From Phycisphaerae bacterium (lineage in GTDB: Bacteria > Planctomycetota > Phycisphaerae > Sedimentisphaerales > SM23-30), in contig JAEIOG010000049.1 in the NCBI GenBank assembly GCA_016342495.1, positions 1 to 35,143 on the forward strand: DNA of 35,143 bases, written 5' to 3'. The translations under genes were made by a program, and so were the position numbers. This document shows positions 8,941 to 35,143 of the stretch, one piece after another. The first letter of the stretch is position 1, and each line of letters starts with the position of its first letter. The notes below the pieces were generated by a model. The model saw nothing but the letters and a program-made list of their open reading frames with translations, had not been told where the DNA came from and did not search any database.

Positions 8941-9045
8941 CCCCCCGGGAGTCATCTATAGCTCTCTGGTAGTTAATCCCTGCCCTCTGGCAGATATCCC
9001 CAGACCTCCGGGAATCATCCCCAGATCTATGGGAATCATCCATAT
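8941..9045. repeat. Five degenerate 21-bp tandem repeats
   Basis: Five consecutive units of exactly 21 nt: 8941-8961, 8962-8982, 8983-9003, 9004-9024 and 9025-9045. The shared core reads CTCTGGGAATCATCCCCAG with variation. Several units contain a small inverted repeat, GGGA-loop-TCCC. The block is GC-richer than the surrounding intergenic DNA. No good ribosome-binding site or plausible protein accompanies it. This array and copy B of the terminator are the main content of the 361-nt gap between the peptidase and the next gene. Confidence 0.75.
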
Positions 9046-9194
9046 TTGAACATAAACATGGTTTTATTGCTAATTATCGCTGTTTTTCCCAATTAATTTA
9101 AAAAATTCATAGGTTTTTGGCAAACAAATATGAAGTTTAAGCGTCATAATTATGAAAATGACAGTTTCCCGTTTAAAACAGGAGATTTAAAACC

Positions 9195-9995
9195 ATGCTG
9201 CACCATAGCGATAGACAAGACAGAATACATATAATGACTCTGGATCATGAACTTGCCGATGATATTTACGAAAGAATTCATCATTATCGGGGTATGGATA
9301 ATATCGAAATTATCCAACCGGTTAAAGGCAATATGGAAACCACCGCGGCCAATATTTTAAAATCAGCCCGTGATACCATGAATTCCAGGATGATAATATT
9401 TGATGTTCGTAATCAAACCCTGCCCATGCTCCAGCGGGCCTATAATGAAATAGTCAGGTTCAATCGTCCGGATTTCAATCATTATTGTTATTCAATTCTT
9501 ATTGGCGATGGCCCGGTCAAACTGCATCAGCCCAATAAGAAGATAGATGTTTTCAATAGTTATCTGGCAGATTTACGTTTAGACTATAGCCCGGCAGTAT
9601 TCTTCGGCAATCCATTTTTGCATTATAGCTATGATGAAATTACGAATCTGGCTTTATATAACCAGAATAAATTGCCGGAAATGATTCCTGAACGTATCAG
9701 CCGTTACTTCAAAGATGAGCATTTAACCGTAAGGAAAATGTTTCGTTATTTCCGGGCTGCTGATATTGAGGTAAATATGAGATTGGAAAAAAGCGGGCAA
9801 AGGCTGGAAAAACTTAAAAGCTTATATGGCAGAATTCTAGCAGAAGAATTTTCTGGTGATAAAGACAGAATTATAAAGTCATTGACTCTGGGCGGTTGTG
9901 AATTGCCCGGTGAGCCGCTAAAACTCAATCTATATCCGTTTTTCTTTGAAGAGTGGATTCTTGAATTAGTCCAAAAAGCTAAACTGGCAGCTTAA
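9195..9995 (+). CDS. Hypothetical protein, 266 aa
   Basis: Not recognised. There is no signal peptide or membrane segment, so it is probably cytoplasmic. The N-terminal ~130 residues alternate hydrophobic strands and helices ('RMIIFDVRNQTLPMLQRAYN', then 'CYSILIGDGPV'), which looks like an alpha/beta domain, perhaps a response-regulator-like or Rossmannoid fold. Residues 165-225 are charged and helical ('FKDEHLTVRKMFRYFRAADI'). The C-terminus is hydrophobic/aromatic ('LNLYPFFFEEWILELV'). GGAG at 9181 lies about 10 nt before the ATG. It stands alone and converges on the Bat operon with a 12-nt gap. A regulatory or two-component-related role is only a guess. Confidence 0.8.
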   Translation: MLHHSDRQDRIHIMTLDHELADDIYERIHHYRGMDNIEIIQPVKGNMETTAANILKSARDTMNSRMIIFDVRNQTLPMLQRAYNEIVRFNRPDFNHYCYSILIGDGPVKLHQPNKKIDVFNSYLADLRLDYSPAVFFGNPFLHYSYDEITNLALYNQNKLPEMIPERISRYFKDEHLTVRKMFRYFRAADIEVNMRLEKSGQRLEKLKSLYGRILAEEFSGDKDRIIKSLTLGGCELPGEPLKLNLYPFFFEEWILELVQKAKLAA

Positions 9996-10005
9996 AGTTT
10001 TTTTT
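9976..10005. terminator. Compact, possibly bidirectional terminator between convergent genes
   Basis: A 5-bp stem AAGCT/AGCTT (9976-9980, 9989-9993) overlaps the stop codon of the plus-strand gene and is followed by eight T's. On the minus strand the same hairpin is followed by TTTTTGG. It would serve both the 266-aa gene and the Bat operon end; the stem is short. Confidence 0.45.
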
Positions 10006-10007
10006 GC

Positions 10008-10835
10008 TCATAGGGTTTCGGCATCGGCGGTTTTTAGCCAGGTGATATCGCCACTGACCAGTTCAACTTTGAGCCATTGGCCCCGGGTTTCCAGCAGACG
10101 GAATTCTGTACCGGCATGCAGGGGTTTTGCGAAGCTTTCAGCATAATTGCTGCCATCACCTTTGCGAGCGGTTGCGGTATCTGCGATTATGACACCATGG
10201 ACATCATTGACCGATGCCTGGTAGTCAATGAAAGTTGAAATCGCCAATGCCAGGCAAATGGTACCGGCGGCAATTATAGCCAACTTGAATTTGCGTTTAC
10301 GCCATAGGGATATTGTTAATAATATCCAGAATGATACCCAGCCTGTTATCGCGATATAAAATTTTATTTTTGTCGAAAAATCATAATGCCAGAAGAACAG
10401 CGTTTTTTTGATTTTGTCCTGGGCCTGTTCAGGGATATTGTCCAGCCTTAAGGTACGGGCATAATGGAGGTTGCCCAGCAGGTCAGGTGATGGCTTGCCA
10501 AATTTCAAGGCCCGACGATAATTAAGAATCGCATGGCCAATATCCTTTTGCATGAGATAGGCATTGGCGATATTATAATATAATGAGGAGTTCTGGATAT
10601 TTCCTGCATCAATGATTTTTTGATAACGCAGGATGCTCTGGTTATAGAGTTCTTTGGCTTTTTGAGGGTCGGTTTTTGAGATACTGCCAGCCTGCTGAAA
10701 CAAATCAATTGCCTGGTCAGCGATACTGTGGGTTTGCTGGTCAGTGAGTTTGGGTTCGGCGGTTTGGCCTAAAGCTATTACGCTATAAGATAATACAGCT
10801 AATATAAATAATATTCTGAATTTAGGGATTATCAT
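10008..10835 (-). CDS. batE: BatE-like TPR and SH3-domain membrane protein
   Basis: 275-residue protein with an N-terminal signal/anchor (residues 5-23). TPR repeats span about 30-135 ('LYYNIANAYLMQKDIGHAILNYRRAL' region). Two membrane segments lie around 158-205. A C-terminal bacterial SH3-like domain covers about 212-275 ('ATARKGDGSNYAESFAK', 'GQWLKVELVSGDITWLK'). This architecture matches BatE, the last member of aerotolerance (Bat) operons, thought to act with the VWA proteins at the envelope. Its start overlaps the BatD stop by 4 nt, so they are coupled. The gene symbol is by analogy with the operon; sequence conservation of BatE is low. Confidence 0.82.
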   Translation of the reverse strand: MIIPKFRILFILAVLSYSVIALGQTAEPKLTDQQTHSIADQAIDLFQQAGSISKTDPQKAKELYNQSILRYQKIIDAGNIQNSSLYYNIANAYLMQKDIGHAILNYRRALKFGKPSPDLLGNLHYARTLRLDNIPEQAQDKIKKTLFFWHYDFSTKIKFYIAITGWVSFWILLTISLWRKRKFKLAIIAAGTICLALAISTFIDYQASVNDVHGVIIADTATARKGDGSNYAESFAKPLHAGTEFRLLETRGQWLKVELVSGDITWLKTADAETL

Positions 10836-12640
10836 CTTTGTAGATTCCTGATGAGATTTATTATTTGATCGATATTAACAGGTCGACAATTACCGGCGGC
10901 ATATCTGGTTTGGCTGGCCTGTTGGAAGAAATTGACAAACTCATCGATTAATTGCTGATTGTAATTGTCATTGGTGAGCAGCTCTTTGCAATCATTTTCG
11001 GTTAATGATTGAGCGGTTCTATCATAGCGGTCTGCGATGAAAGTTCGCAAGGCTTCAAGAGCGGCGAGATTGAGTTTGTCAGTATCAGAAGTTTTGATTT
11101 TATTGAGAGTAGCGATGGCATTACGGCCCGCATTGGAACGCAGTTTTTGCCTGTGACGCACTGGATTGCTGGAATTAGCTATGCGAACACCCAGTGCAAT
11201 GCAGAACAGGACAAATGGCAAAGCCAGGATAGCAATTGTAATAGGATTCCAGATAGTGGCTAATAAGCTGAAATGGTTTTGCTGGAAAAGCTCCGGGCCA
11301 TTATGATTAGCGGCAATGCCCTGGGCTGAGGATTCGACCAGAGTCACAGTTGGATTTATAATAATATCATTGCCGATAGCCTGAGTGGAAGAATGAAATT
11401 CTGCGGCTTTGACTTTGATTGCAATAGGTTCACTGGCAACAGTAATATATTGATCTTTATTTGTATCAAAAAAGCTGAGCGGGACAGCTGGGATTTCATT
11501 TATTTCTGCATTTGTAGCGCGAATAATATATTTGAAAGTTTTTATACCGTTTTCAATAGTTGGCTTATCGATTTCATTGGGGATTTTGAAATTACCCGGG
11601 AAACCTTTAACGTTATTAAGGTCCGGCAGTTGGACGGCTTTTAATAATTGGCCTGAAACCTTGATTGTAAGCTCAATTGGGTCGCCTTCTGAAACCTCGG
11701 TCGGTGCTGCCGATGAAACGATCTGGTAGGTGCCCAGTAAACCATTGAAATTTTGGGGCTTGCCATCTTCCGGCAATGGTCTGACATTGAGATAGACAGG
11801 TTTACTCACTGCCTGATAGCGGGCATAAGTCGGCTGCTCGAAAAGACTGCGACGCCTGGAAGTTTCTACTTTGCAGGCTACAGTTGCAGGTTCTAGTTTG
11901 ATATTACCGGTTTTTTGTGGGACCAGGATTGAGCCAAAGGAAATTGCTATGTGGTTTTTGCCTTTATAGGTGGTTTCATATTGACGGCCAACGATGGTTT
12001 TTGTACCAAGTTGGATTTCCATGCCTTTGTTACCTGTACCGGGAGGATTGTTCATTTCTTCAATAATAAAATTATCTTCATCAACTAAAGCCGGGGCCGA
12101 AATTCCCGCTAAGCTGCCATTGCCTAATGAAGGGTCATAATACCAGATATAGGCGATACGGATCGGTTGGCCAACATAACAGGTAGTATCGGAAATTTGT
12201 ACCAGCAGATCAAGTTTGTCAGAGTTTTCGGGCCTGCGGACATTAATGGAAACGGGGCGGGTTTTATATTTTTGGCCATCAACGGTTACTTCGATAGCTG
12301 GGATAATTTGGGAACCAGCTTTGGTGGCCAGCATGCTGTATGAAATTATCTGTTGACTGGAGTTGCCACCTGAATCGACGCGGCGACCATTAACTGTCAT
12401 TGAAAAACCTGAAGATGAACTGCTTTGGATTCCACGATATTGAGGCGAAAATTCTGCCAGGGGTGAGATGTCGATTTCGGGTTCACCTTTAGGGTTTACG
12501 ATTACAATTTCAAAACTAAACGGTTCGCCTATATAAATGTCATCAGAGGCCTGAGCCTTAACGGTGACCTGGCCATAAGCAGAAGCTGCTGATAGTACAC
12601 AAGCTATGAAAAATAAAATTATTGTTTTAACGTTTGTCAT
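10832..12640 (-). CDS. batD: BatD family protein
   Basis: 602-residue exported protein. A signal peptide ends near residue 24 (SAASAYGQ). A long extracytoplasmic region of immunoglobulin-like beta strands follows, including 'VTVKAQASDDIYIGEPFSFE' and 'LLVQISDTTCYVGQPIRIAY', the repeated hallmark of BatD. One membrane segment lies near 470-490 ('IAILALPFVLFCIALGV') and a cytoplasmic tail follows. It sits between the TPR protein and BatE, as in other Bat operons, and is thought to scaffold the VWA proteins. The 81-nt gap upstream is the largest inside this part of the operon and contains a promoter-like sequence. No strong ribosome-binding site is visible before the ATG. Confidence 0.9.
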   Translation of the reverse strand: MTNVKTIILFFIACVLSAASAYGQVTVKAQASDDIYIGEPFSFEIVIVNPKGEPEIDISPLAEFSPQYRGIQSSSSSGFSMTVNGRRVDSGGNSSQQIISYSMLATKAGSQIIPAIEVTVDGQKYKTRPVSINVRRPENSDKLDLLVQISDTTCYVGQPIRIAYIWYYDPSLGNGSLAGISAPALVDEDNFIIEEMNNPPGTGNKGMEIQLGTKTIVGRQYETTYKGKNHIAISFGSILVPQKTGNIKLEPATVACKVETSRRRSLFEQPTYARYQAVSKPVYLNVRPLPEDGKPQNFNGLLGTYQIVSSAAPTEVSEGDPIELTIKVSGQLLKAVQLPDLNNVKGFPGNFKIPNEIDKPTIENGIKTFKYIIRATNAEINEIPAVPLSFFDTNKDQYITVASEPIAIKVKAAEFHSSTQAIGNDIIINPTVTLVESSAQGIAANHNGPELFQQNHFSLLATIWNPITIAILALPFVLFCIALGVRIANSSNPVRHRQKLRSNAGRNAIATLNKIKTSDTDKLNLAALEALRTFIADRYDRTAQSLTENDCKELLTNDNYNQQLIDEFVNFFQQASQTRYAAGNCRPVNIDQIINLIRNLQR

Positions 12641-14182: not shown

Positions 14183-15182
14183 TTTTTCTTCTCTCGGAAA
14201 TCAAAGGTTCAATCGCTGCCAGAGCAATAGCGATTATCAGGAAAATCTGAAATTTCTGTTCATAGTCAAAAACGGTAGTCTGATCGAAATTACGCTGGCT
14301 GGCCGGGGCTATCAGACTGTTATAAAAATCAGTCATATCATAGTTGCCAGTTGATACATTAAGGAATTTCCCCCCCGGAGTTGCCGTTGCAATGTCTTCG
14401 AGTAATTTTATATCGAGTTTGGTTTTGACAATTTTGTCTTCATATTTGAGATAGGTTTGACGGCCAAACTCATCGGTTATGGGGATACGGGCACCTTCGA
14501 TAGGGTCACCTATCCCTATGACAAATAAGCGAATGTTCTTTCCGGCGGCCAACTGGGCGGCTTTGACCGGTTCACTGTCATGGTCTTCGCCATCAGTGAT
14601 AAGAATTATATCTTTATAGCCTTCCTGGTCATCAAAAACATTAGTAAGGGTTTCACGAATAGCATCACCAATGTTCGTGCCACCTTTGGTGACGCTTTCG
14701 GTGGAAATGCTGTCGATAGCCATTCGCGCAAAGCCATAGTCCAGGGTTAATGGGCATTTAACCACGGCATTACCAGAGAAAACCACGATTCCAAGCCGAT
14801 CGCCATTGAGAGCTCCAAGCAATTCTTTAAGATCCAGCTTGGCACGTTCCAGTCGATTAGGCTTTAAATCTTCAGCAAGCATGGACCGGGATACATCTAA
14901 AATAACGGCCAGATCGCGGCCTTTATGCTGAACATCCCTGGGCTTTTTATTCCAGACCGGTTGAGTCAATGCGAAAATAATTGCCGTGGCCGCCAGGATC
15001 AATAGTATCGCTTTTAATATTTGTCTAGGCCGTGATACATCCAAAGCCATCTTATCTAATAGTTTGGCTTGGACAAAACGGCTTAGCAGAATGCGTTTGC
15101 GTCTGAAATACAGCATATACAGACCAAAGGCAAACGGCAAAAGCCAGAACAGCCATAGTGCTATATCATTTTGCAGTTTCAC
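14169..15182 (-). CDS. batB: BatB-like VWA domain membrane protein
   Basis: 337-residue VWA protein. Two membrane segments lie near the N-terminus (about 8-25 and 56-73) and one near the C-terminus (about 310-328), flanking a VWA domain. The MIDAS metal site is complete: D96-x-S98-x-S100 (DVSRS), a Thr in 'GGTNIGDA' and an Asp in 'ITDGEDHD'. It belongs to the paired VWA proteins of Bat operons, which assemble at the inner membrane with the domain on the periplasmic side. The start lies 1 nt after the stop of the other VWA gene. Which of the two is BatA and which BatB follows operon order rather than sequence proof. Confidence 0.9.
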   Translation of the reverse strand: MKLQNDIALWLFWLLPFAFGLYMLYFRRKRILLSRFVQAKLLDKMALDVSRPRQILKAILLILAATAIIFALTQPVWNKKPRDVQHKGRDLAVILDVSRSMLAEDLKPNRLERAKLDLKELLGALNGDRLGIVVFSGNAVVKCPLTLDYGFARMAIDSISTESVTKGGTNIGDAIRETLTNVFDDQEGYKDIILITDGEDHDSEPVKAAQLAAGKNIRLFVIGIGDPIEGARIPITDEFGRQTYLKYEDKIVKTKLDIKLLEDIATATPGGKFLNVSTGNYDMTDFYNSLIAPASQRNFDQTTVFDYEQKFQIFLIIAIALAAIEPLISERRKNVSK

Positions 15183-24213: not shown

Positions 24214-25680
24214 CTAAAATTTTGGCGTGTAAATATGGCAATATGGGCTTTGTCCATTATTCTGATAATAATCCTGATGATAATCTTCAGCAGACCAGAA
24301 TTTGTCAGCTGCGATCAATTCAGTTTTGACATCAAAGCCTTTTCCTTTAAGGATATCGATCAGCTTCTGAGCTGTCTTTTTTTGTTCATCGCTGGTATAA
24401 AATATTGCCGAACGATATTGCGAGCCAATATCTGGCCCCTGACCATCTGCCTGGGTTGGGTCATGGGTTTCAAAATAAAGTTTTGTCAGCTTTTCATAGC
24501 TTGTCTTTGCAGGGTCAAAATAAACTTCAATGGCTTCATAATGGCCGGTTTGCCCAGTACATACCTGCTTATATGTTGGGTTTACCACATCACCGCCAGT
24601 GTAGCCTACCGAAGATTTTATTACCCCTTTAGCCTGATCAAGATGATATTGAGTGCCCCAGAAACATCCCGAAGCAAATATCCCGCGCTCCAGGTCTTTA
24701 TCAGCTATGAAATCCATCGAAATTGAATTGACACAATATCTGGCATTTTTGTCAGTATAGCCTTCCCCATTAAATATATGGCCCAAATGACCACCACAAT
24801 TATTACAGATTATCTCTATACGCTGTCCATCTGCATCAGGTTGTTGTTTGACCGAATCGCCGATCTGGTCATCAAAGCTGGGCCATCCGCAATCGCTTTT
24901 GAATTTGGAGCTGGAATAAAACAAAGGCTTGTCACATTGACGACAAGTATATGTGCCTTTATCGAAATGATCGTGAAATTCCCCGCTAAAAGGTGCTTCT
25001 GTACCTTTGTTGATAATTACATATTTTTCTTTTTCATTTAGTTCATTATACATCTTATTCTCTTTATATAATTCAATTTCGTCGACATAAAGCTCTGCTG
25101 TCATTTCTTCGTATATCGCTACCACTGCAACGGATTTGATTTTACTTTTATCCAGTTTCTTAGTCAAGCTTTCAGGCTTAAAATCCTTAAATGGCAATTT
25201 AATTGTCTGCCATGATTCATCCGTATCAAACTTCGCCTGATAGAACTGCCACGGCAGCCAGGTCGCATTTGTTCGCAAGTGGATCCCATAGGATTTACCA
25301 TTGCCTTTAACCCGAATTAATATACCATCAAAATCAGTTGCGTCCAGTAGATATTTCTCATCCATGGCTAATTTGCGACTTTGGATAAAGCCACCATTGT
25401 TTGCCAGAGAAATTTTGCCGGTTAAAGCCATGCAACTGCGATTATCGATATCTAAAAAAGTTACTTTACCCGTAGATTCACCGCCCATAACCGAATCGGC
25501 AAAAAATTTCCATTCGGTTTTGGATTTTTCAGTGTTATTGAAGTCATCTAAGATATATCTATCTTTTTCGGATAGCAATTTAGGTTTTATTGACTGGGCC
25601 TGACAGGTAATAATGAAAGAAATTATGAGTAATGTCCCAAAAAATAGCCATAATGACTTGTTTTTCTTTATATTTATCAT
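24214..25680 (-). CDS. msrAB: Exported CIA30-MsrB-MsrA fusion (methionine sulfoxide reductase)
   Basis: 488-residue trifunctional-looking protein. A signal peptide covers about 1-30. A CIA30-like beta-sandwich domain is at 40-205 ('SVMGGESTGKV' is its mark). MsrB lies at about 215-325, with zinc cysteines C246/C249/C292/C295 and catalytic C316 (RYCVNS). MsrA is at about 330-488, with catalytic C339 in GCFWG and 'YTGGDVVNPTYKQVCTGQTG'. MsrA and MsrB reduce the S and R isomers of methionine sulfoxide; secretion suggests repair of oxidised envelope proteins. The B-then-A order and the N-terminal CIA30 domain are unusual, since fused forms are more often MsrA first. It converges on the VTC gene with a 21-nt gap. 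An AAGGA site precedes the ATG. Confidence 0.93.
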   Translation of the reverse strand: MINIKKNKSLWLFFGTLLIISFIITCQAQSIKPKLLSEKDRYILDDFNNTEKSKTEWKFFADSVMGGESTGKVTFLDIDNRSCMALTGKISLANNGGFIQSRKLAMDEKYLLDATDFDGILIRVKGNGKSYGIHLRTNATWLPWQFYQAKFDTDESWQTIKLPFKDFKPESLTKKLDKSKIKSVAVVAIYEEMTAELYVDEIELYKENKMYNELNEKEKYVIINKGTEAPFSGEFHDHFDKGTYTCRQCDKPLFYSSSKFKSDCGWPSFDDQIGDSVKQQPDADGQRIEIICNNCGGHLGHIFNGEGYTDKNARYCVNSISMDFIADKDLERGIFASGCFWGTQYHLDQAKGVIKSSVGYTGGDVVNPTYKQVCTGQTGHYEAIEVYFDPAKTSYEKLTKLYFETHDPTQADGQGPDIGSQYRSAIFYTSDEQKKTAQKLIDILKGKGFDVKTELIAADKFWSAEDYHQDYYQNNGQSPYCHIYTPKF

Positions 25681-26203: not shown

Positions 26204-26965
26204 ATGGCAGATGATAAAGATATAAAAAACAAGGTGCTACTGGCAATACCGGTCTATAATGAGCAGCAGTATATCAATGATGTTCTCGATGAGGTTGCCC
26301 ATTATATCGATAATGTTTTGGTTATCAATGATGGCAGCAATGATGCCAGTGGAGCCATCCTCGATGCCAGAACCGATATTAATATCATAACTCGCGCGAA
26401 AAACTGTGGTTATGGCCAAAGTATGATTGATGCTTTCACCTTTGCCAAAGCCCATGATTTCAATTGGGTTATCACCATGGATTGCGACCTTCAGCATGAA
26501 CCGGTGCAAATACCTGATTTCATTGAGCGAATTATCAGAGATGATGTCGATGTGATCAGCGGTTCACGTTATCTGCATCATCTTCCGGAATCTACAGTGC
26601 CGCCTGATCGCAAAAACATCAATAAACAGTTAACGCTACTGCTGAATCAAAAATTTGATTTGAATATAACCGATGCCTTTTGCGGGTTTAAGGCTTATCG
26701 CACCTCGGCGGTACTGAGGCTGCCTTTAACTGAGCAGGGTTATGCCTTTCCGATGCAGTTCTGGGCATTTATGCAATGTTCCGGTCTGAAAATGTGTGAA
26801 ATCCCGGTTAGTTTGATTTATAATGATCCCAACCGTTCTTTTGGGGGCGAACTTGATGATGCCAAAACCAGAATGGACCATTATATGCAAGTCTTAAATC
26901 AGGCTGTGAACGATTGCCTTAAGCTCAAAGCCAGCTGTGGAACTTGCCGTTGTCAAAATAAATAA
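26204..26965 (+). CDS. Glycosyltransferase family 2 protein
   Basis: 253-residue GT-A fold enzyme resembling dolichyl-phosphate mannose/polyprenyl-phosphate glycosyltransferases. Visible motifs are the nucleotide-sugar start 'LLAIPVYNEQ', 'VLVINDGSNDASG', the metal-binding DxD in 'MDCDLQHEP' and 'VISGSRYLHH'. There is no C-terminal membrane anchor, so it is probably cytoplasmic or membrane-associated. I chose the ATG at 26204 because the upstream promoter would start there; an ATG at 26186 would lie over that promoter. It is followed after 25 nt by the BshC-like gene in the same direction, so they probably form an operon. Donor and acceptor are unknown. Confidence 0.9.
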   Translation: MADDKDIKNKVLLAIPVYNEQQYINDVLDEVAHYIDNVLVINDGSNDASGAILDARTDINIITRAKNCGYGQSMIDAFTFAKAHDFNWVITMDCDLQHEPVQIPDFIERIIRDDVDVISGSRYLHHLPESTVPPDRKNINKQLTLLLNQKFDLNITDAFCGFKAYRTSAVLRLPLTEQGYAFPMQFWAFMQCSGLKMCEIPVSLIYNDPNRSFGGELDDAKTRMDHYMQVLNQAVNDCLKLKASCGTCRCQNK

Positions 26966-26990
26966 TTTTAATAGCATCATAATCCAAGCA

Positions 26991-28580
26991 ATGCAAAAGC
27001 CCTCATCAAAATTCAATATCGCCAAACCCATCGGCCATGGCCAGGTTGTAGTTCAGCCGGATGGTTCTGATCTTGGCGGTCAGTTATTGTCCAATATCGC
27101 CACCTTATCCAGCGATAAAACCATCGCCAATATCCCCCTGGCCCAATTACGCCATAAGGCTAAAGCTGAACTGTTGGCCAAGGCCTTAGATTATACTGCT
27201 GGGCATATCCAAAATATTTCTATTGATAAGCCAATGATTGTAACCGGTCATCAATGTCAATTCTGGCATTGCGGCATAATCGCCAAATACATCACCGGCG
27301 CTTTATTAGCCAAGGCAGAAGCTGGTTGCTTTATTAATCTGGTGCTGGACCATGACCTTGTTGGCCAGGTGCAGCTGCGCTGGCCGCAAATGAGTGATGC
27401 CCAGATGAAAATGCATCATATACCATTAAATCAGATTGACCCTGATTTGCCGGCTCAACTGCAAACTATAAGTTCCGGCCAGATAAAAGATTTTGTATCT
27501 GCCATCGATTCGCAAATAGATCCTGATATGGCCCAATGGCCTCAGCTTGGCGCCCAGATTCTAGCTGCCGGGGCTCGAGCCGGAACCATTAGTGACTTTT
27601 TCGCTTTATTGAATCGTTCAATTGCCGCGGCAAACTCAATCCATTGGCTGGACTTGCCGGTTTCGGCGATGACTGAAAGCGAAAGTTTTGCATTATTTAC
27701 CGCTGAGATGCTGGTTAATGCTGATACTGCCTGGCAAAGATATAATGATGCGATTAAATTTGGAAAACAAAACCAAAGCAATCATCATCTGGTCCCGGAA
27801 TTAATTAGTATCGAAGATAAACTGGAAATGCCTTTCTGGATAATTGATAATAATCGCCGCCACCGTTTATTTCTCAGGCAGCAGGATAATATTATTCAGC
27901 TGGGCACCTTAAGCCAGAACATGTACAGCATTTGCCGGGTCAATAGCAAGAGTACCGCAGCAATTGCCCGGGAATTATTAGCCAGTAATATTCAGATTCG
28001 ACCCCGGGCACTAACTTTGACCGCATTTGCCCGGCTGTTTTTAGCTGATCAATTCATTCATGGCATCGGTGGTGCCTATTATGATTTGCTGACTGACCAT
28101 TTTATCGAAAATTATTATGGAATCAAGCCCCCGGGTTTTGTTTGTGTTTCAGCGACCATGCAATTATTTGCTGATAAATATCAAAACGGTGCCGATGCCT
28201 TATCTCTCTATCGACAAGCTCGACATCATTGCCGGGATTTCAATTATAATCCTCAGCGATATAGAGATTTAACGGTTTTTAATCCGATAATCCACGAGCT
28301 TTTATCCCAGCGGCAGGCGGCAATAGAGTTAAATGACCAGTTAAAATCCCAACAGGCCAGCTCTAGTACTCGCAGTTTGCAATTCCAGCGAATCAAAGAG
28401 CTCAATCGGCAGCTAACTGCGCTATTACCCGATATCAAGGCTAAATTGCAGGCCGCATCAGATCAGGCCAGCCAGAATGCCGCTGCCATGGCGATAGCAA
28501 ATGATCGGGAATATTTCTTTGGACTCTTTAACCCAGCTCAGCTTGGCTTGCTGGAAGCTAAGATCAGAGAATTGTTATAA
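26991..28580 (+). CDS. BshC-like protein (putative cysteine-adding enzyme relative)
   Basis: 529-residue protein. The N-terminal third resembles BshC, the last enzyme of bacillithiol synthesis: 'PMIVTGHQCQFWHCGIIAKY' corresponds to its TGQQ/GPLY motif and 'NLVLDHDLVG' to its DHD motif. A later block, 'PRALTLTAFARLFLADQFIH' then 'GIGGAYYDLLTDHF', is as I recall it characteristic of planctomycete homologues. The C-terminus is a charged coiled coil. The ATG at 26991 has no clear ribosome-binding site; an in-frame GTG at 26937 would overlap the glycosyltransferase gene. It may add cysteine or another amino acid to a sugar product of its neighbour. This is inference; true bacillithiol synthesis is not shown. 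Confidence 0.7.
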   Translation: MQKPSSKFNIAKPIGHGQVVVQPDGSDLGGQLLSNIATLSSDKTIANIPLAQLRHKAKAELLAKALDYTAGHIQNISIDKPMIVTGHQCQFWHCGIIAKYITGALLAKAEAGCFINLVLDHDLVGQVQLRWPQMSDAQMKMHHIPLNQIDPDLPAQLQTISSGQIKDFVSAIDSQIDPDMAQWPQLGAQILAAGARAGTISDFFALLNRSIAAANSIHWLDLPVSAMTESESFALFTAEMLVNADTAWQRYNDAIKFGKQNQSNHHLVPELISIEDKLEMPFWIIDNNRRHRLFLRQQDNIIQLGTLSQNMYSICRVNSKSTAAIARELLASNIQIRPRALTLTAFARLFLADQFIHGIGGAYYDLLTDHFIENYYGIKPPGFVCVSATMQLFADKYQNGADALSLYRQARHHCRDFNYNPQRYRDLTVFNPIIHELLSQRQAAIELNDQLKSQQASSSTRSLQFQRIKELNRQLTALLPDIKAKLQAASDQASQNAAAMAIANDREYFFGLFNPAQLGLLEAKIRELL

Positions 28581-28901: not shown

Positions 28902-29876
28902 GTGCAAAAGGTCAAAACATTCATATATAATTATATTAAGTCAATGCGACTGTATTATGCTTTCGTTACCGGAATCTCCGGTTGGCTGGGTGTGGCTTTT
29001 TACAAATTTATCTTTCCCGGACAGGTCGATGCCTGCAGGTTAATAATAGTGCTGACAATTCTTTTTTTAAGCTGGGGAATTAATCAAATCGTCAATGATT
29101 ACCTGGGCCTGAAAGAAGACCGCATCAATGCCCCCAATCGCCCGATGGTCAATGGCTCACTTGCCATAAAACCGGCGATGACTTTAACCGCGATTTTATT
29201 ATCAATAGCTATATTTATATCATACCTGCTGAATCCACTGGCGGTAATTCCGATTGTTGCCGGGATATTACTTAATATTTTATATGAATACGCCAAGGCT
29301 TTTTCATTAATGGGCAATATTGTTTTTGGGGTGATGATTGCTATGTGCCCGGCCTATGGCTTCCTGGCCTGTGGGCCTGCGCCGCAACCCTTATTAACAG
29401 TTAATAGAATATCTGTTTTGATTCTGGTTGCGATATTAAATGGCCTGATGACCTTCTATACCTATTTTAAGGATCATACAGGTGACAAACAGGCTGGCAA
29501 AAAAACATTTATTGTCAAATATGGAATTGATAAAGCCCGGCGGGCCGGCGTTGTTGGTGCTTTTGTAACAATATTTGCCTTGTTTGGTCTTATTTATATA
29601 AACTGGCTGCCAGTTGAAGATATTTTATTTAAACATACTTTTATCTTTTGCATGGCCGTGACTTTCTTTTTGCAGTGCTGGACAGCATATCTTTATTTTG
29701 TCTATCCTCAGGGCCAGCGGACCTATTTCAGTCTGGTAACCAATTTCAGGGCCTGTATCGCCGGACAATGCGCATTAATTGCCATCTTTAATGGTGAACT
29801 TGCCCTGTATCTGCTAATTGCCAGTTATATCCTTGTTGGTTTTTTGTTTAATGCTTATACGGATGCAAAATCATGA
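28902..29876 (+). CDS. UbiA family prenyltransferase
   Basis: 324-residue integral membrane enzyme with about eight or nine hydrophobic segments. The first Asp-rich prenyl-diphosphate motif appears as 'VNDYLGLKEDRINAPNRP' (ND-x5-6-D spacing, second half D-x-x-N). The second is 'YFKDHTGDKQAGKKTF'. Both match the UbiA superfamily, closest in style to the chlorophyll/homogentisate and geranylgeranylglyceryl-phosphate branch. It would transfer an isoprenoid chain to an acceptor at the cytoplasmic membrane. The start is a GTG with a good GGAG site. The stop overlaps the radical SAM start by 4 nt. First gene of the six-gene cluster; acceptor unknown. Confidence 0.9.
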   Translation: MQKVKTFIYNYIKSMRLYYAFVTGISGWLGVAFYKFIFPGQVDACRLIIVLTILFLSWGINQIVNDYLGLKEDRINAPNRPMVNGSLAIKPAMTLTAILLSIAIFISYLLNPLAVIPIVAGILLNILYEYAKAFSLMGNIVFGVMIAMCPAYGFLACGPAPQPLLTVNRISVLILVAILNGLMTFYTYFKDHTGDKQAGKKTFIVKYGIDKARRAGVVGAFVTIFALFGLIYINWLPVEDILFKHTFIFCMAVTFFLQCWTAYLYFVYPQGQRTYFSLVTNFRACIAGQCALIAIFNGELALYLLIASYILVGFLFNAYTDAKS

Positions 29877-31141
29877 AAAATATAACAGGCTTTGGAAAAT
29901 TCGTGATCTACTCCAGAATCGCTTTACATGTTTGCATTATATATTTATTTAAAGTCAAGCCGTGGCAATATCCCCGGTTTTTAAGACGGGCTTTCATTCT
30001 TTTAATGTCTTTCAGACATAATGCAGTCGTAAAAGTTTTCAATGGCTATAAACTCCAATTATACTTACCGGCCTATCCCTGCCGGGCTTTCTTTTATGCC
30101 CTGGACAGTAAATTATTAAAAACCCCGCCCGGGCCGATAACGATTGTTTTTTCCATGACCAAGGCATGTAGCTATAAATGCCCGCATTGCTATCAAAAAA
30201 AGGATGGCGGCCCCGATCTACAGGAACAAAAACTTATCGAGACCCTGATTAATGTCAGAGACAAAGGGGTGGCGATGTTTGATATTGAAGGCGGAGAGCC
30301 CTTCCTGCGTTTTGAACGCTTATTGAATTTAATCAAAGCTCTGGATTCCAGGTCAGAAATATGGGTTAATACCACCGGTATGCATGTAGATAAAAATAAC
30401 CTGACTGCTTTGCAGGCAAATGGATTATTTGGGTTAATGATTTCAATACATTCCCCTGATCGAAAAATCCATGATGACTTTACCGGTATCGCTGGCTCAT
30501 TTGAGACAGCCTGCCAGGCGATCAAATTATGTAAAGATCTTGATTTAGTTGTATCAATCAATAGCGTCTTAGCAGAACAGGAAATTAACGATGGCAAACT
30601 TAATGATTTAATGGAGCTGGCAAAATCGCTGAAAGCTGATTTTGTTCAATTAATTCATCCCAAGCCCTCAGGACTTTGGTTGGATAAATCAGATCATATG
30701 CAAAACGATAAGAGTTTTATTACAGATGTTCAGCAGCAGCATTTACTGTACAATTCAAAAGCAAAGCAGTTTTATCCCGCCCTGGCAGCCCAGGTATTTG
30801 AAGAAAGAAAAACAGGATTTGGCTGTACCGCTGGAGCTGTTGACCGGTTTTATGTAAATGCCACCGGGGAGATACAGCCTTGTGAATTTCTGAATATATC
30901 ATTCGGCAATGTCAATATTGAAGATTTTGATGTGATTTATAATCGGATGCGATCATATTTTAATAATCCATGTCAAGACTGGTTATGCTGCACGCAGGCT
31001 CAGAGCATATCGGAGATAATAAAAAAATATGAGTTACAGGCAACACCCCTGCCATGGCAATATACCCAGGAATTAATCAAAACCTGGGATAGAGGCCCCC
31101 AAACTCCTTTGTATAAAAAACTGGGAATATATAAAAAATGA
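29873..31141 (+). CDS. Radical SAM protein with SPASM-like C-terminus
   Basis: 422-residue enzyme. A hydrophobic/basic N-terminus (1-50, possibly membrane-associating) precedes the radical SAM core. The 4Fe-4S motif is C99-x3-C103-x2-C106 (CSYKCPHC), followed by the SAM-binding 'GGEP' at 140-143. The C-terminal part holds further cysteines ('GFGCTAG', 'GEIQPCEF', 'PCQDWLCC') in SPASM-like arrangement for auxiliary clusters. Such enzymes modify peptides or small substrates by radical chemistry. The 4-nt overlaps with UbiA and the lipid kinase indicate tight co-translation. Substrate unknown; acting on a lipid or prenylated intermediate is inferred from neighbours. Confidence 0.9.
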   Translation: MKNITGFGKFVIYSRIALHVCIIYLFKVKPWQYPRFLRRAFILLMSFRHNAVVKVFNGYKLQLYLPAYPCRAFFYALDSKLLKTPPGPITIVFSMTKACSYKCPHCYQKKDGGPDLQEQKLIETLINVRDKGVAMFDIEGGEPFLRFERLLNLIKALDSRSEIWVNTTGMHVDKNNLTALQANGLFGLMISIHSPDRKIHDDFTGIAGSFETACQAIKLCKDLDLVVSINSVLAEQEINDGKLNDLMELAKSLKADFVQLIHPKPSGLWLDKSDHMQNDKSFITDVQQQHLLYNSKAKQFYPALAAQVFEERKTGFGCTAGAVDRFYVNATGEIQPCEFLNISFGNVNIEDFDVIYNRMRSYFNNPCQDWLCCTQAQSISEIIKKYELQATPLPWQYTQELIKTWDRGPQTPLYKKLGIYKK

Positions 31142-32037
31142 AATTAATATTAAATCCTGCCTCAAAATCTGGTAAGGGAAAAAAGTATTGGGCATTGTGG
31201 CAGGAAAAATTAAATAAGATGCAAATTGATTTCCGCAGCAATGAAACCGAATCGCTGCAACATGCTTACAATTTAGCCAAAGATTCTAATGAGAATGTGA
31301 TAGCAGTCGGCGGCGATGGAACAATTAATCAGGTAATCAATGGCCTTATGACAGCGGAAAACACAAAAAGTATGGGCGTGCTCTATGCCGGAACAAGCCC
31401 GGATTTTTGCCGGTTCCATAATATCCCGATTCAACCTGAAAAAGCATTGCGGTGCTTGCTGGATAATAAAAAGAAAATGGTTGATGTTATTGAAATTTTA
31501 TATAAGGATAAAGATAAGTCAGTATCAGCTTATTTTGCCTGCAGCTGCAATATTGGTTTAGGCGCTGATATTGCCCGCTTCGCCAATAAATGGAGAAAAG
31601 TATTTGGAGATTGCATCGGAACCGGATTAGGGGTTATCAAAACCATTCTGGCCAACAAAACCTTTAACTCAAGTTTAACTATAGATAATAAAGAATATGT
31701 ATTTGCCCGAACGAATCATATTTTCATTGTCAAAAACCCATTTATCGCTTCAGGATTAAAACTAAATCTGAATATAGAACCTGATGATGGAAGGATGTTT
31801 GTAGTGCTAATACATGACTTGAACAGATTAAAACTATTGAGTGTTTTAAGGCATTTATATTCAGGCAAGATAGTTAAAAATGATAAGATTTTTATTAAAG
31901 AATGCAGGGAAGTATCTGTCAACACCTGCCCGATTAAAGAAATTGAATTTGATGGCGACCCCCAGGGATTCACCAAAATGACAGCAAAAATAATCCCTGG
32001 CAAACTTTCATTAATTTGTGGACAAAACAATGCATGA
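31138..32037 (+). CDS. Diacylglycerol/sphingosine kinase-like lipid kinase
   Basis: 299-residue soluble kinase of the DAGK catalytic family. Motifs are 'NPASKSGKG' near the start and the nucleotide-binding 'AVGGDGTINQVINGL' (58-72 region). The acidic end motif is 'IEFDGDPQG'. The third motif, normally GTxNDFAR, is here 'GTSPDFCRF', so Asn is replaced by Pro while Asp and Arg remain. It would phosphorylate a hydroxyl on a lipid, typically diacylglycerol or a long-chain base. The ATG overlaps the radical SAM stop by 4 nt. Possible alternative: a catalytically altered homologue. The context with an alpha-oxoamine synthase makes a sphingoid-type substrate conceivable. Confidence 0.88.
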   Translation: MKLILNPASKSGKGKKYWALWQEKLNKMQIDFRSNETESLQHAYNLAKDSNENVIAVGGDGTINQVINGLMTAENTKSMGVLYAGTSPDFCRFHNIPIQPEKALRCLLDNKKKMVDVIEILYKDKDKSVSAYFACSCNIGLGADIARFANKWRKVFGDCIGTGLGVIKTILANKTFNSSLTIDNKEYVFARTNHIFIVKNPFIASGLKLNLNIEPDDGRMFVVLIHDLNRLKLLSVLRHLYSGKIVKNDKIFIKECREVSVNTCPIKEIEFDGDPQGFTKMTAKIIPGKLSLICGQNNA

Positions 32038-32974
32038 GATAGATTGTATAAACTCTATATTGAAGAATTTCAAAAGATCACCCGATCAGAAAAATGATCC
32101 ATTTCAAAGTGATGCCGAAATCCTGGATATCAATGGTGAGCTTTTTGGCATAACCATGGATGAATTCTCTTCTGGAGAAGATATGTTTGATGTCGATGAT
32201 TTATTCAAACTGGGAAAGAACTTAGCGGTCGCTACTATTTCAGATTTACTGGCAGTGTCATGTACCCCGGCCTTTTTCATGCATTCGATTGTTTATCCTG
32301 CTGATAATCATAATTTTGCCCCGGGGATCGCAGCGGGGATAAAAAACATATTAGACCAGTGTAATTGCTTTTTAATTGGCGGAGACCTGGGTCAATCTGC
32401 CAGCTGGCATTATACCGCCGTAGTATTTGGAACATTCAAAACCTGTAAGCCAACCACCAGAATCATCCCACATCATCAGCAGGATTTATGGATAACCGGA
32501 ACCCTTGGTGATGCGAATTTAAGTGCCCTGACAGGTTTACCCACTCCGGAATTTGAACTTCGTTTAGAGCAGGCCGATATGATAAAGCAATGCGCAAATG
32601 CCTGCATTGATACCAGTGGTGGGCTTATAGAGAGTTTGTGGACTTTGAAAGATCTTAACCCTGGTATAAGTTTTTACATAAATTCAGAATCCATACCTTA
32701 TGACAAAAGCGTTTTAGATTTTTGTGCAAAAGAAGAATTTCCTAAAGAAGCATTCTTATTTGGGGGTGCCGGTGAATATGAATTACTTTTTACAACTGAT
32801 TTTGCTATTGAGATTGCCGGATGCCGAAAAATCGGCACAATAAAACCTACTGGTAAATCGCAATTATTTTGGGATAATAAACCAATAAACAAACCACCTG
32901 CTGATCCAAGAGAATTTATCAATAGAGAACAGTATATCCAGAAAATCATGGAGGATGTTAAGCAATGTCTGTAG
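32030..32974 (+). CDS. ThiL/PurM-like (AIR synthase-related) kinase
   Basis: 314-residue protein of the PurM/ThiL superfamily. The fold's motifs are seen but altered: 'ATISDLLAVSCTPAFFMHSI' (ThiL AVSDLAAMG-like), 'LIGGDLGQSA' (GGDT in ThiL), 'CIDTSGGL' (D-x-SDGL) and 'GGAGEYELLF' (usually GGGEDYELLF). ThiL phosphorylates thiamine monophosphate using ATP; the altered motifs and the neighbours suggest another substrate. The ATG at 32030 overlaps the lipid kinase stop by 8 nt; an in-frame GTG at 32018 is an equal alternative. The downstream reductase gene overlaps its stop by 10 nt. No signal or membrane segment. Confidence 0.8.
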   Translation: MHEIDCINSILKNFKRSPDQKNDPFQSDAEILDINGELFGITMDEFSSGEDMFDVDDLFKLGKNLAVATISDLLAVSCTPAFFMHSIVYPADNHNFAPGIAAGIKNILDQCNCFLIGGDLGQSASWHYTAVVFGTFKTCKPTTRIIPHHQQDLWITGTLGDANLSALTGLPTPEFELRLEQADMIKQCANACIDTSGGLIESLWTLKDLNPGISFYINSESIPYDKSVLDFCAKEEFPKEAFLFGGAGEYELLFTTDFAIEIAGCRKIGTIKPTGKSQLFWDNKPINKPPADPREFINREQYIQKIMEDVKQCL

Positions 32975-34167
32975 ATACTGATATTTTATTTTCTCCTTTA
33001 ATATTACAGAATATAACGATTCCCAATCGAATCATTCGATCAGCGACTTATGAAGGGATGGCTGATGCCAATGGTTATCCTCAGCAGGGACTTGGTAATC
33101 TTTATGCTGATTTAGCCCAAAACGGTGCCGGAGCTATAATCACAGGTTTCTGCTATATTTCAAAGCAAGGCAGGGCAATGCAGCCCCGGCAATGCGGCAT
33201 TGATAACGATGACAAAATAAAACCATGGAATGCTGTTGTAAACCAGGCTAAGAAAGCTAATCCCCAAACACCTTTATTTATGCAAATTGCCCATACCGGC
33301 AGACAGACACTAAAAAAATTCACCAGAGAAACAGTCTTTGGTGCTTCAAATAAAAAATGCATCTATTTCAGGCAAAAAGTCAAAACGCTCACCGAAAGTG
33401 AAATTTCCATTATTATCAATGATTTTGTCTATGCCGCAGTGCGAGCCAAAAAGGCCGGATTTGATGGCATTCAAATCCATGGGGCCCATGGCTACCTGAT
33501 TCACCAGTTCTTATCGCCTTATACCAATAACCGGACAGATAAATGGGCTGATGGAACCCTGCTACTAAAGGAAATATTAGAATCAATCAAACAAAACTGC
33601 CGCGATGATTTTCCAATTCTGCTAAAACTCAGCCATAGCGATGACAGGGGCCTTAATATCAGAGACACAATTAATACAATCATGCAAATTGAACATTTAA
33701 CCGATGCCGTTGAAATCAGTTATGGCACCATGGAATATGCATTAAATATTATCAGAGGTGACTGTCCGGTCGATGTCATTTTACAAGTTAACCCAATGTT
33801 CAAGAATCTCCCGAAAATTATAAAGAAAATCGGAAAAACTTTCTTCTTACAGAAATATCTCTCTAAAATCATCCCTTATATAAACAATTATAATCTTGAT
33901 GCCGCTACCAAAATCAATCGGCAGGTTAATATCCCGGTGATAGCTGTTGGCGGTATTCGAAATGTAAATGATATGGTTGATATAACTAATCAGCATAAAG
34001 CTGATGCTATTTCGCTTTGTCGACCATTTATCTGCGAGCCGGACCTTGTCAGTAATATCAGGCAAGGCCTTTACCTGAAATCAAAATGTATCAATTGCAA
34101 TTTATGTTCAATATATTGCGACAGCACCAATCAATTGAAATGTTATGCTGCGGGAGCAAAAAAATGA
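32965..34167 (+). CDS. NADH:flavin oxidoreductase, Old Yellow Enzyme family
   Basis: 400-residue FMN TIM-barrel reductase. The fold opens with 'LFSPLILQNITIPNRIIRSA'. The active-site pair H172/H175 is in 'IHGAHGYLIHQFLSP', and the phosphate-binding part is 'VIAVGGIRNVNDM'. After the barrel is a cysteine cluster C375, C378, C381, C385 and C393 (CINCNLCSIYC), resembling the 4Fe-4S-binding region of the 2,4-dienoyl-CoA reductase subgroup, but the protein stops there without the FAD/NAD domain. It would reduce an activated C=C bond. GGAGG (about 32949) precedes the ATG. It shares ATGA with the oxoamine synthase start. Confidence 0.92.
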   Translation: MSVDTDILFSPLILQNITIPNRIIRSATYEGMADANGYPQQGLGNLYADLAQNGAGAIITGFCYISKQGRAMQPRQCGIDNDDKIKPWNAVVNQAKKANPQTPLFMQIAHTGRQTLKKFTRETVFGASNKKCIYFRQKVKTLTESEISIIINDFVYAAVRAKKAGFDGIQIHGAHGYLIHQFLSPYTNNRTDKWADGTLLLKEILESIKQNCRDDFPILLKLSHSDDRGLNIRDTINTIMQIEHLTDAVEISYGTMEYALNIIRGDCPVDVILQVNPMFKNLPKIIKKIGKTFFLQKYLSKIIPYINNYNLDAATKINRQVNIPVIAVGGIRNVNDMVDITNQHKADAISLCRPFICEPDLVSNIRQGLYLKSKCINCNLCSIYCDSTNQLKCYAAGAKK

Positions 34168-35143
34168 ATAAAAGAAATTTCGAAGAATTTATGGCCAAAA
34201 ATGGCACAGAAGATATTTTCAGCAAAGTTACTGATTTCCAGAATTATCTCAATAATTATGAAGATGATTTTGAACAGGGGCTGGGCATACAAATACTTTC
34301 ACCGGCCGGACCTCATGCTAAAATCAAAAACCGTAAAGGCATCGAAAAAGATACCCTTATGCTGGGTTCCAATTCTTACCTTAATCTGACAACTCACCCT
34401 AATGCCATCGCCGCCAGTGAAAAAGCATTAAAAAAGTTTGGCTATGGCATGGGAGCAGTCTCACTTTATGCTGGTATTACCGACCTGCATAGAGAGCTTG
34501 AAACGCTAATTGCTCAATTTCATCATACTGAAGATGCGATATTGTTCCCCAGCGGCTATGGCACTAATATTGGTATAATATCGGCTCTATGTCAAAAAGG
34601 TGATATAATCATCAATGACAGTGCCAACCATGCCTCCATTTTTGATGGCTGTGTTCTATCCGGCGCTGATATCAAAATATATCCGCATAATAATATGAAA
34701 AGGTTGGAACATATTTTATCCCGCCTTTCGAATGAGCAAAAAGGCAGGCTGATTATCACTGATGGGGTTTTTTCCATGCATGGAGATATAGCGAAACTAG
34801 ATGAGATAGTTCAGTTGGCCCAAAAATATCATGCCCGTATAATGGTTGATGATGCCCACGGCATAGGAATCGTAGGTCCAACAGGACGCGGCACCGCTGA
34901 AGTCTATGGTGTTGAAAAAGAAATAGATATCAAAGTTGGCATGCTCAGCAAAGCTCCCGGAGGTCTTGGCGGCTTTTGTGCCGGCAAAAAAGAACTTATC
35001 AATTATTTACGAATTTATGCCCGGACCTATTTCTTTTCAACTGCCATGCCGGCACCTTTGACAGCTGGTGTAAACGCCGGCGAAAAAGTGCAGCGCATGT
35101 CGGGTCGGTTTAAAAGTGTAGCGCCTGTTAAAAAGGGCCGATG
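34164..35143 (+). CDS. Alpha-oxoamine synthase family PLP enzyme (AONS/KBL/SPT-like), truncated by window end
   Basis: 326 codons are present and the gene runs off the window; the family is about 390-420 residues. PLP-site residues are visible: H156 (NHAS), D229 and H232 (VDDAHG) and the Schiff-base lysine K263 in 'LSKAPGG'. The glycine-rich 'YGMGAVSLYAGITDLHRELE' is typical. The family condenses an amino acid with an acyl-CoA or acyl-ACP and decarboxylates it, giving 8-amino-7-oxononanoate, 2-amino-3-ketobutyrate or 3-ketosphinganine. The setting with a lipid kinase, rather than bio genes, favours a lipid-type product over biotin. The start overlaps the reductase stop by 4 nt. The last ~20 codons look unlike the family. 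Confidence 0.88.
   Translation, partial: MNKRNFEEFMAKNGTEDIFSKVTDFQNYLNNYEDDFEQGLGIQILSPAGPHAKIKNRKGIEKDTLMLGSNSYLNLTTHPNAIAASEKALKKFGYGMGAVSLYAGITDLHRELETLIAQFHHTEDAILFPSGYGTNIGIISALCQKGDIIINDSANHASIFDGCVLSGADIKIYPHNNMKRLEHILSRLSNEQKGRLIITDGVFSMHGDIAKLDEIVQLAQKYHARIMVDDAHGIGIVGPTGRGTAEVYGVEKEIDIKVGMLSKAPGGLGGFCAGKKELINYLRIYARTYFFSTAMPAPLTAGVNAGEKVQRMSGRFKSVAPVKKGR

Follow-up and report, generated by a model that had tools for sequence, protein, structure and literature searches.

In Caulobacter, the genes for Spt and CerR are found together (PMC11324152, PMC10331486), and a bacterial ceramide kinase of the lipid-kinase superfamily, CpgB, is known, as is a bacterial dihydrosphingosine kinase (PMC10331486). 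Spt-like proteins have also been found in many metagenome-assembled genomes (MAGs) of Planctomycetota from the Black Sea (PMC11334938). Here we describe an operon of a Phycisphaerae bacterium (assembly GCA_016342495.1) that encodes a UbiA-family transferase, a radical SAM protein, a DAGK/YegS-type lipid kinase, a ThiL-like kinase, an old-yellow-enzyme (OYE)-type reductase, an alpha-oxoamine synthase (AOS) and a short-chain dehydrogenase/reductase (SDR), and that probably makes an undescribed membrane lipid. Most of the operon lies at the end of contig JAEIOG010000049.1 (C219), the whole 35,143 nucleotides of which we call the window; this contig, one of 221 in a 5.4-Mb genome (G000), ends at position 35143. 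We found no paper naming this gene set in the open-access literature that we searched, subscription literature lying outside the scope of the search.

The operon resembles the Caulobacter-type sphingolipid pathway (Spt, CerR, AcpR, AasR and CpgB) in that an AOS of the serine palmitoyltransferase (SPT) superfamily is found beside an extended SDR, together with a lipid kinase. Unlike that pathway, it has no acyl carrier protein (ACP) or acyl-ACP synthetase, and it adds the UbiA, ThiL-like, radical SAM and OYE proteins. Because the ACP and the acyl-ACP synthetase are missing, we regard the operon as a variant of the bacterial long-chain-base lipid pathways and not as a Caulobacter-type member. 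A neighbourhood of AOS and DAGK genes is likewise seen in Bacteroidota, where a gene for an SPT-like AOS is divergent from a DAGK gene (loci L126 and L127); in contrast to the window, however, these loci contain neither UbiA nor ThiL, and their DAGKs belong to another branch. In plants, phytol kinase and phytyl phosphate kinase feed a UbiA transferase, a logic of two phosphorylations followed by UbiA that is the same as the one we consider here, although the plant kinases are not homologous to the kinases of the operon.

A seven-gene operon is split by an IS21-like element

Six open reading frames (ORFs) run on one strand from position 28902 to the contig end and encode, in order, the UbiA, radical SAM, DAGK/YegS, ThiL-like, OYE and AOS proteins. 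A preliminary description, made from the letters of the window, had named these six families, and matches to Pfam and NCBIfam models confirm them; our measurements also reproduce the junction overlaps that it gave, which are 4, 4, 20 (or 8, if translation of the ThiL-like protein starts at the ATG at 32030 instead of at a GTG), 10 and 4 nt. Six long overlapping ORFs with domain matches are far beyond what chance would produce. The 321 bases 5′ of the UbiA gene contain no gene, and in a promoter and terminator scan the promoter matches were not above chance.

The preliminary description had further supposed that the operon continues beyond the window, and here the assembly tells otherwise, as the contig stops at 35143 inside an insertion sequence (IS) that interrupts the AOS gene. 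In particular, the terminal 75 bases (35069–35143, unstranded; TGTAAACGCCGGCG...) are the end of a repeat that occurs about 20 times in the genome, mostly at contig ends, where it breaks the assembly. A related and intact copy of the repeat on contig C31 contains ORFs for an IstA-like (501 aa) and an IstB-like (263 aa) protein, both named by inspection, and we therefore assign the repeat to the IS21 type. The element begins at 35069, after codon 301 of the AOS gene, the 5′ part of which (34164–35068, plus strand) comprises 301 codons and 2 bases; the last 25 or so codons of the open AOS frame in the window are IS sequence and not enzyme. The bases directly before the element, AGCTGG (35063–35068, unstranded), are a target-site duplication, the second copy of which immediately adjoins the opposite end of the IS on contig C13. 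From that end, the 3′ part of the AOS gene continues on the minus strand of C13 (locus L043) down to position 15017. Positions 22–282 of the family are present in the window and positions 271–385 on C13, and the reading frame is continuous across the AGCTGG duplication found at both flanks. The AOS gene overlaps by 4 nt (ATGA) a seventh gene, which encodes an extended SDR of 321 aa and after which the operon ends. The full operon is thus UbiA, radical SAM, DAGK, ThiL-like, OYE, AOS and SDR, with the AOS gene split in the assembled genotype. Because the insertion splits the AOS gene, this population probably has the pathway switched off or is polymorphic for it. For the same reason, the earlier suggestion that six products are made in fixed ratio is not tenable as stated for this genotype, in which the sixth gene is interrupted.

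A UbiA-DAGK-ThiL core recurs in two phyla

Related loci were sought with the ThiL-like protein as the lead, and the first to be found was in a Planctomycetota MAG (G289; VGYV01000044), where genes for an AOS, a DUF3419 protein, a GNAT protein, a UbiA, a DAGK, a ThiL-like protein and an acyl-CoA ligase follow in this order (DUF3419 and GNAT named by Pfam, the ligase by inspection), the AOS gene lying three genes upstream of that for UbiA. A scan with these two ThiL-like proteins identified a four-gene operon, AOS-UbiA-DAGK-ThiL, in an Aminicenantes MAG (G529; WVXO01000036), and when 396 genomes of the Aminicenantes phylum were searched with a profile, UbiA-DAGK-ThiL without an adjacent AOS was found in two more (G922 and G833). 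UbiA-DAGK-ThiL, which we refer to as the core, is therefore present in the same order at 4 loci from two phyla, with an AOS gene beside it in 2 of the 4. The successive gaps between the core genes are 3 and −4 nt in G289, 1 and −4 nt in WVXO01000036, 4 and −4 nt in G922, and 3 and −10 nt in G833. The window departs from the core order in that the radical SAM gene is situated between those for UbiA and DAGK.

A gene for a classical SDR follows the core in G922, and in G833 the core is adjoined by a divergent gene for an extended SDR that is 29% identical to the SDR of the window operon. An SPT-type AOS is encoded beside an extended SDR, away from the core, in both G922 and G529, and an SPT-type AOS is encoded elsewhere in the genome of G833; every core-bearing genome that we tested contains an AOS of the SPT type or an AOS within the cluster. 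The AOS proteins of G289 and of the Aminicenantes operon are sister to an SPT clade (support 96/95), and for the Aminicenantes protein SPT is the best NCBIfam model.

As judged by trees and common motifs, the ThiL-like and UbiA proteins of the window are related to those of the core. The window ThiL-like protein groups with the core ThiL-like proteins (100/98, and 100/99 after long rows were removed) and has the motif F.RSP.Q.N...SDAE in common with them, and the window UbiA groups with the core UbiAs (93/91). The window DAGK, which the first tree did not place, grouped weakly with the core DAGKs once long rows had been removed (82/90); a KNP motif is common to these kinases.

Core-type ThiL was present in 3 of 392 sampled Planctomycetota (the genome of the window, G289 and G395) and likewise in 3 of the 396 genomes sampled from the Aminicenantes phylum, a rare and patchy occurrence that suggests horizontal transfer. 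In G395 the core-type ThiL gene stands alone at a contig edge, and no DAGK gene was seen in the 2.9 kb upstream. Weak ThiL-like matches in five other Planctomycetota genomes (G152, G161, G479, G211 and G197) were set aside, as they have no operon neighbours and fall outside the core in the tree. The one search across 84,980 species relied on two narrow peptide patterns, which returned only 2 loci, and because of their narrowness the true distribution is underestimated. The preliminary description had proposed a search for co-occurrence of all six families. What recurs is the core, at four loci in two phyla and with an AOS beside two of them; the six window families together were seen in no other genome among those searched. 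Co-occurrence also fails for close kin, because the operon's ThiL-like gene was not found in 147 relatives of the window genome, which gave one weak match (G047).

UbiA and the ThiL-like protein depart from the sequences of their closest families

The UbiA-family membrane transferase (324 aa; 28902–29876, plus strand; Pfam UbiA, E = 3.9e-25) is encoded by the first gene of the operon. Its nearest relative of solved structure is archaeal digeranylgeranylglyceryl phosphate synthase (6m31, E = 2e-13), which prenylates a lipid phosphate (PMC9385802). The two Asp-rich motifs of the family are not both complete in the window protein: the domain and the second motif (DHTGD) are present, and motif 1 reads NDYLGLKED, with Gly in place of the middle Asp. 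This Asp is lost from the core UbiAs as well (they have His or Gln), and it is present in nearly all alignable comparison UbiAs from the same genomes. By our own alignment the lost residue corresponds to D66 of MjDGGGPS, a Mg2+ ligand near the diphosphate donor (PMC9385802), so that the core UbiAs differ from the archaeal synthase in having no equivalent of this motif-1 metal ligand. An AlphaFold2 model of the window UbiA, built from a three-row alignment, had a predicted local distance difference test score of 49 and was not usable.

The DAGK/YegS-type lipid kinase (299 aa; 31138–32037, plus strand), the gene for which overlaps the radical SAM gene by 4 nt, matches DAGK_cat (3e-24) and YegS_C (1.4e-14) in Pfam; both domains and the GGDGT motif are kept.

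The fourth gene (32018–32974, plus strand) encodes a ThiL-like (AIR synthase related) kinase paralogue of 318 aa, the closest family being thiamine-monophosphate kinase ThiL, which phosphorylates a phosphate monoester. The protein scores 102 bits against TIGR01379 and does not reach the cutoff of 184. A canonical ThiL is encoded on contig C218 of the same genome (257 bits), and a separate ThiL above the curated cutoff was found in 4 of 4 genomes tested, this one included, which rules out a role of the core ThiL-like protein as the housekeeping thiamine kinase. Compared with ThiL, the window protein has SDAE for GDDAA near the N terminus and GE[FY]EL for [DE]D[FY]EL near the C terminus. Most of its acidic motifs are kept, but it has DTSGGL where others have DTSDGL or a similar sequence.

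The AOS is neither BioF nor Kbl

For trees and NCBIfam scores, the window and C13 parts of the AOS were read as one protein. The best relatives of solved structure are SPTs (E = 2e-57), and the residues for binding of pyridoxal phosphate and for catalysis are kept (HAS, DDAH and SK in the alignment to 2x8u and 3a2b). The NCBIfam scores, all below their cutoffs, are 394 bits for TIGR01825, 373 for glycine C-acetyltransferase, 351 for BioF and 347 for SPT (cutoff 640), and the highest identity in the tree set, 42%, is to Bacillus Kbl. A true Kbl, sister to that of E. coli, is encoded on contig C173 (679 bits against a cutoff of 460), and contig C23 of the same genome carries a BioF-like gene. 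With these separate genes present, and with trees placing the operon's AOS outside both groups, we reject its identification as BioF or Kbl. The preliminary description had named, as a finding that would refute its reading, an AOS within a BioF clade followed by bio genes; the protein lies outside that clade, and the gene downstream is that for the SDR.

The SDR is nearest to the OleD, Epimerase and 3Beta_HSD models, and not to threonine dehydrogenase. As an extended SDR whose gene overlaps that for the AOS by 4 nt, it is a candidate 3-keto reductase of the CerR/KDSR type. A copy of the 3′ end of this SDR gene, 37 codons long and 89% identical, is present on C13 (L043:8833–8943, minus strand), left by a duplication or rearrangement at this locus.

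The radical SAM and OYE proteins

The radical SAM protein (422 aa; 29873–31141, plus strand; Pfam Radical_SAM, 3.7e-15), the gene for which overlaps the UbiA gene by 4 nt, has the CxxxCxxC motif, as CSYKCPHC, and a Cys-rich C terminus that is SPASM-like by inspection; its best NCBIfam model is GeoRSP (104 bits against a cutoff of 400). Relatives of this protein (26–30% identical, from the same order) are encoded adjacent to and convergent with a UbiA gene at 9 of the 15 best loci, which links this type of radical SAM protein independently to UbiA chemistry. The 9 convergent pairs (L013–L019, L021 and L023) constitute a recurrent, uncharacterised gene pair of this order. The OYE-type flavin reductase (400 aa; 32965–34167, plus strand; Pfam Oxidored_FMN, 2.7e-48) has a C-terminal Cys cluster, CINCNLCSIYC; it scores below cutoff with all NCBIfam models, and its solved relatives include 3krz.

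Neighbouring genes

Upstream of the operon, positions 26937–28580 encode a 547-aa protein that has no Pfam or NCBIfam match and is BshC-like by eye only, and positions 24214–25680 (minus strand) encode CIA30, MsrB (SelR) and MsrA (PMSR) fused in one protein with a signal-like N terminus. On C13 (L043), a neighbouring three-gene operon (9035–12498, plus strand) encodes an MR_MLE enolase, a GH3 amide synthetase, for which the nearest NCBIfam model, far below cutoff, is OlsH lyso-ornithine lipid synthetase, and an ICMT/PEMT methyltransferase; this is possibly another amino-lipid pathway.

Discussion

We tentatively favor, at somewhat less than an even chance, a pathway in which a sphingoid-type amino-alcohol lipid receives two phosphates in turn, after which UbiA links it to a second chain. 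We infer each reaction and the product itself, and the sphingoid-type base in particular from the enzyme families and the pairing of AOS with SDR. By condensation of an amino acid and a fatty acyl thioester, the AOS would form a 2-amino-3-keto long chain, whose ketone the SDR would reduce to yield a sphingoid-type base. The DAGK-type kinase would then phosphorylate the alcohol, and the ThiL-like kinase would add a second phosphate to the first, as ThiL does on thiamine phosphate. The membrane enzyme of UbiA fold would couple the activated lipid to a partner, isoprenoid or alkyl, and diphosphate would be released. In this lineage, the radical SAM and OYE proteins may act as accessory enzymes by which the chain is modified or saturated. 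The preliminary description had pointed to a sphingoid-like amino-ketone or a prenylated lipid, which is in part supported and is the best reading left, with no BioF in the operon and with synteny that extends to the core only.

Several of our observations weigh against this pathway. The window AOS is not placed with the SPTs, the glycine C-acetyltransferase and TIGR01825 models outscore SPT, and its branch, outside the Kbl and BioF groups, has no otherwise resolved placement. No ACP, ceramide synthase or acyl-ACP synthetase gene is present from position 28560 in the window to the end of the SDR gene on C13. The window proteins, only 25–30% identical to those of the core, are on long branches, so attraction in the trees is possible, and here the motifs common to the ThiL, DAGK and UbiA proteins help the grouping. 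Because an Asp is lost from both the window ThiL-like protein (the second Asp of DTSDGL) and motif 1 of the core UbiAs, catalysis by these proteins may differ or fail. Finally, co-presence of the core with an SPT-type AOS may mean little if SPT-type genes are likewise frequent in genomes without the core.

It is conceivable, albeit rather unlikely, that the DAGK and ThiL-like kinases activate a prenol, making the diphosphate of an allylic or long-chain alcohol from which UbiA transfers the prenyl group, with the AOS and SDR supplying only the acceptor or serving a separate pathway. UbiA enzymes require prenyl diphosphates and ThiL phosphorylates a phosphate, and UbiA-DAGK-ThiL is invariant and in the same order in all 4 additional loci, two of which (G922 and G833) have no AOS beside it. 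The absence from the core UbiAs of an equivalent of D66, the Mg2+ ligand near the diphosphate donor (PMC9385802; equivalence by our alignment), speaks against prenol activation. Furthermore, characterised members of the DAGK family act on lipids such as diacylglycerol, sphingosine or ceramide, and two of the core loci carry an AOS as well. We regard as unlikely that the operon serves phosphorylation of, and prenyl transfer to, diacylglycerol or another glycerolipid and that the AOS and SDR genes joined it by chance or make an independent product. The gene content around the core varies from locus to locus, an AOS is beside it in just 2 of the 4 additional loci, and the nearest relative of UbiA, archaeal digeranylgeranylglyceryl phosphate synthase, acts on glycerol phosphate. 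Yet the Aminicenantes four-gene operon starts with an AOS and holds nothing besides the core, the AOS gene is operonic in the window too, and each core-bearing genome tested has an SPT-type or in-cluster AOS.

That the operon has decayed to a non-functional remnant in this lineage we consider quite improbable. The IS inside the AOS gene, the loss of one active-site Asp from the window ThiL-like protein, the long branches, the absence of the ThiL-like gene from the 147 relatives and the nearby 37-aa duplicate from the 3′ end of the SDR gene would all fit such decay, but all six remaining frames are intact and overlap tightly, and the GGDGT, CxxxCxxC and second UbiA (DxxxD) motifs are kept. Moreover, the target duplication AGCTGG is still perfect, so the insertion looks recent. 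Very improbable, and disfavored here, is that the AOS and SDR constitute a threonine degradation pair (Kbl with an SDR-type threonine dehydrogenase), or that the AOS is BioF. The window AOS scores best with TIGR01825 and PRK06939 (glycine C-acetyltransferase) and, within the tree set, is closest in identity to a Bacillus Kbl; against this, a true Kbl and a BioF-like protein are encoded on C173 and C23, the window AOS lies outside both groups, and the SDR is nearest to the OleD, epimerase and 3-beta-HSD models.

In an extension of the sphingoid pathway that we hold to be doubtful, the two kinases would in succession turn a sphingoid-type alcohol into a lipid diphosphate, from which a UbiA-fold enzyme with a reduced metal site would assemble a membrane lipid, either a sphingoid-isoprenoid hybrid or a twin-chain ether, as a new tailoring class distributed patchily in Planctomycetota and the Aminicenantes phylum. 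The core is a small, defined gene set suited to expression and assay. If the pathway we favor is correct, the operon would specify an undescribed bacterial membrane lipid and provide its genetic marker, and a ThiL paralogue acting on lipid phosphates, together with a UbiA that lacks a metal ligand, would represent unusual chemistry.

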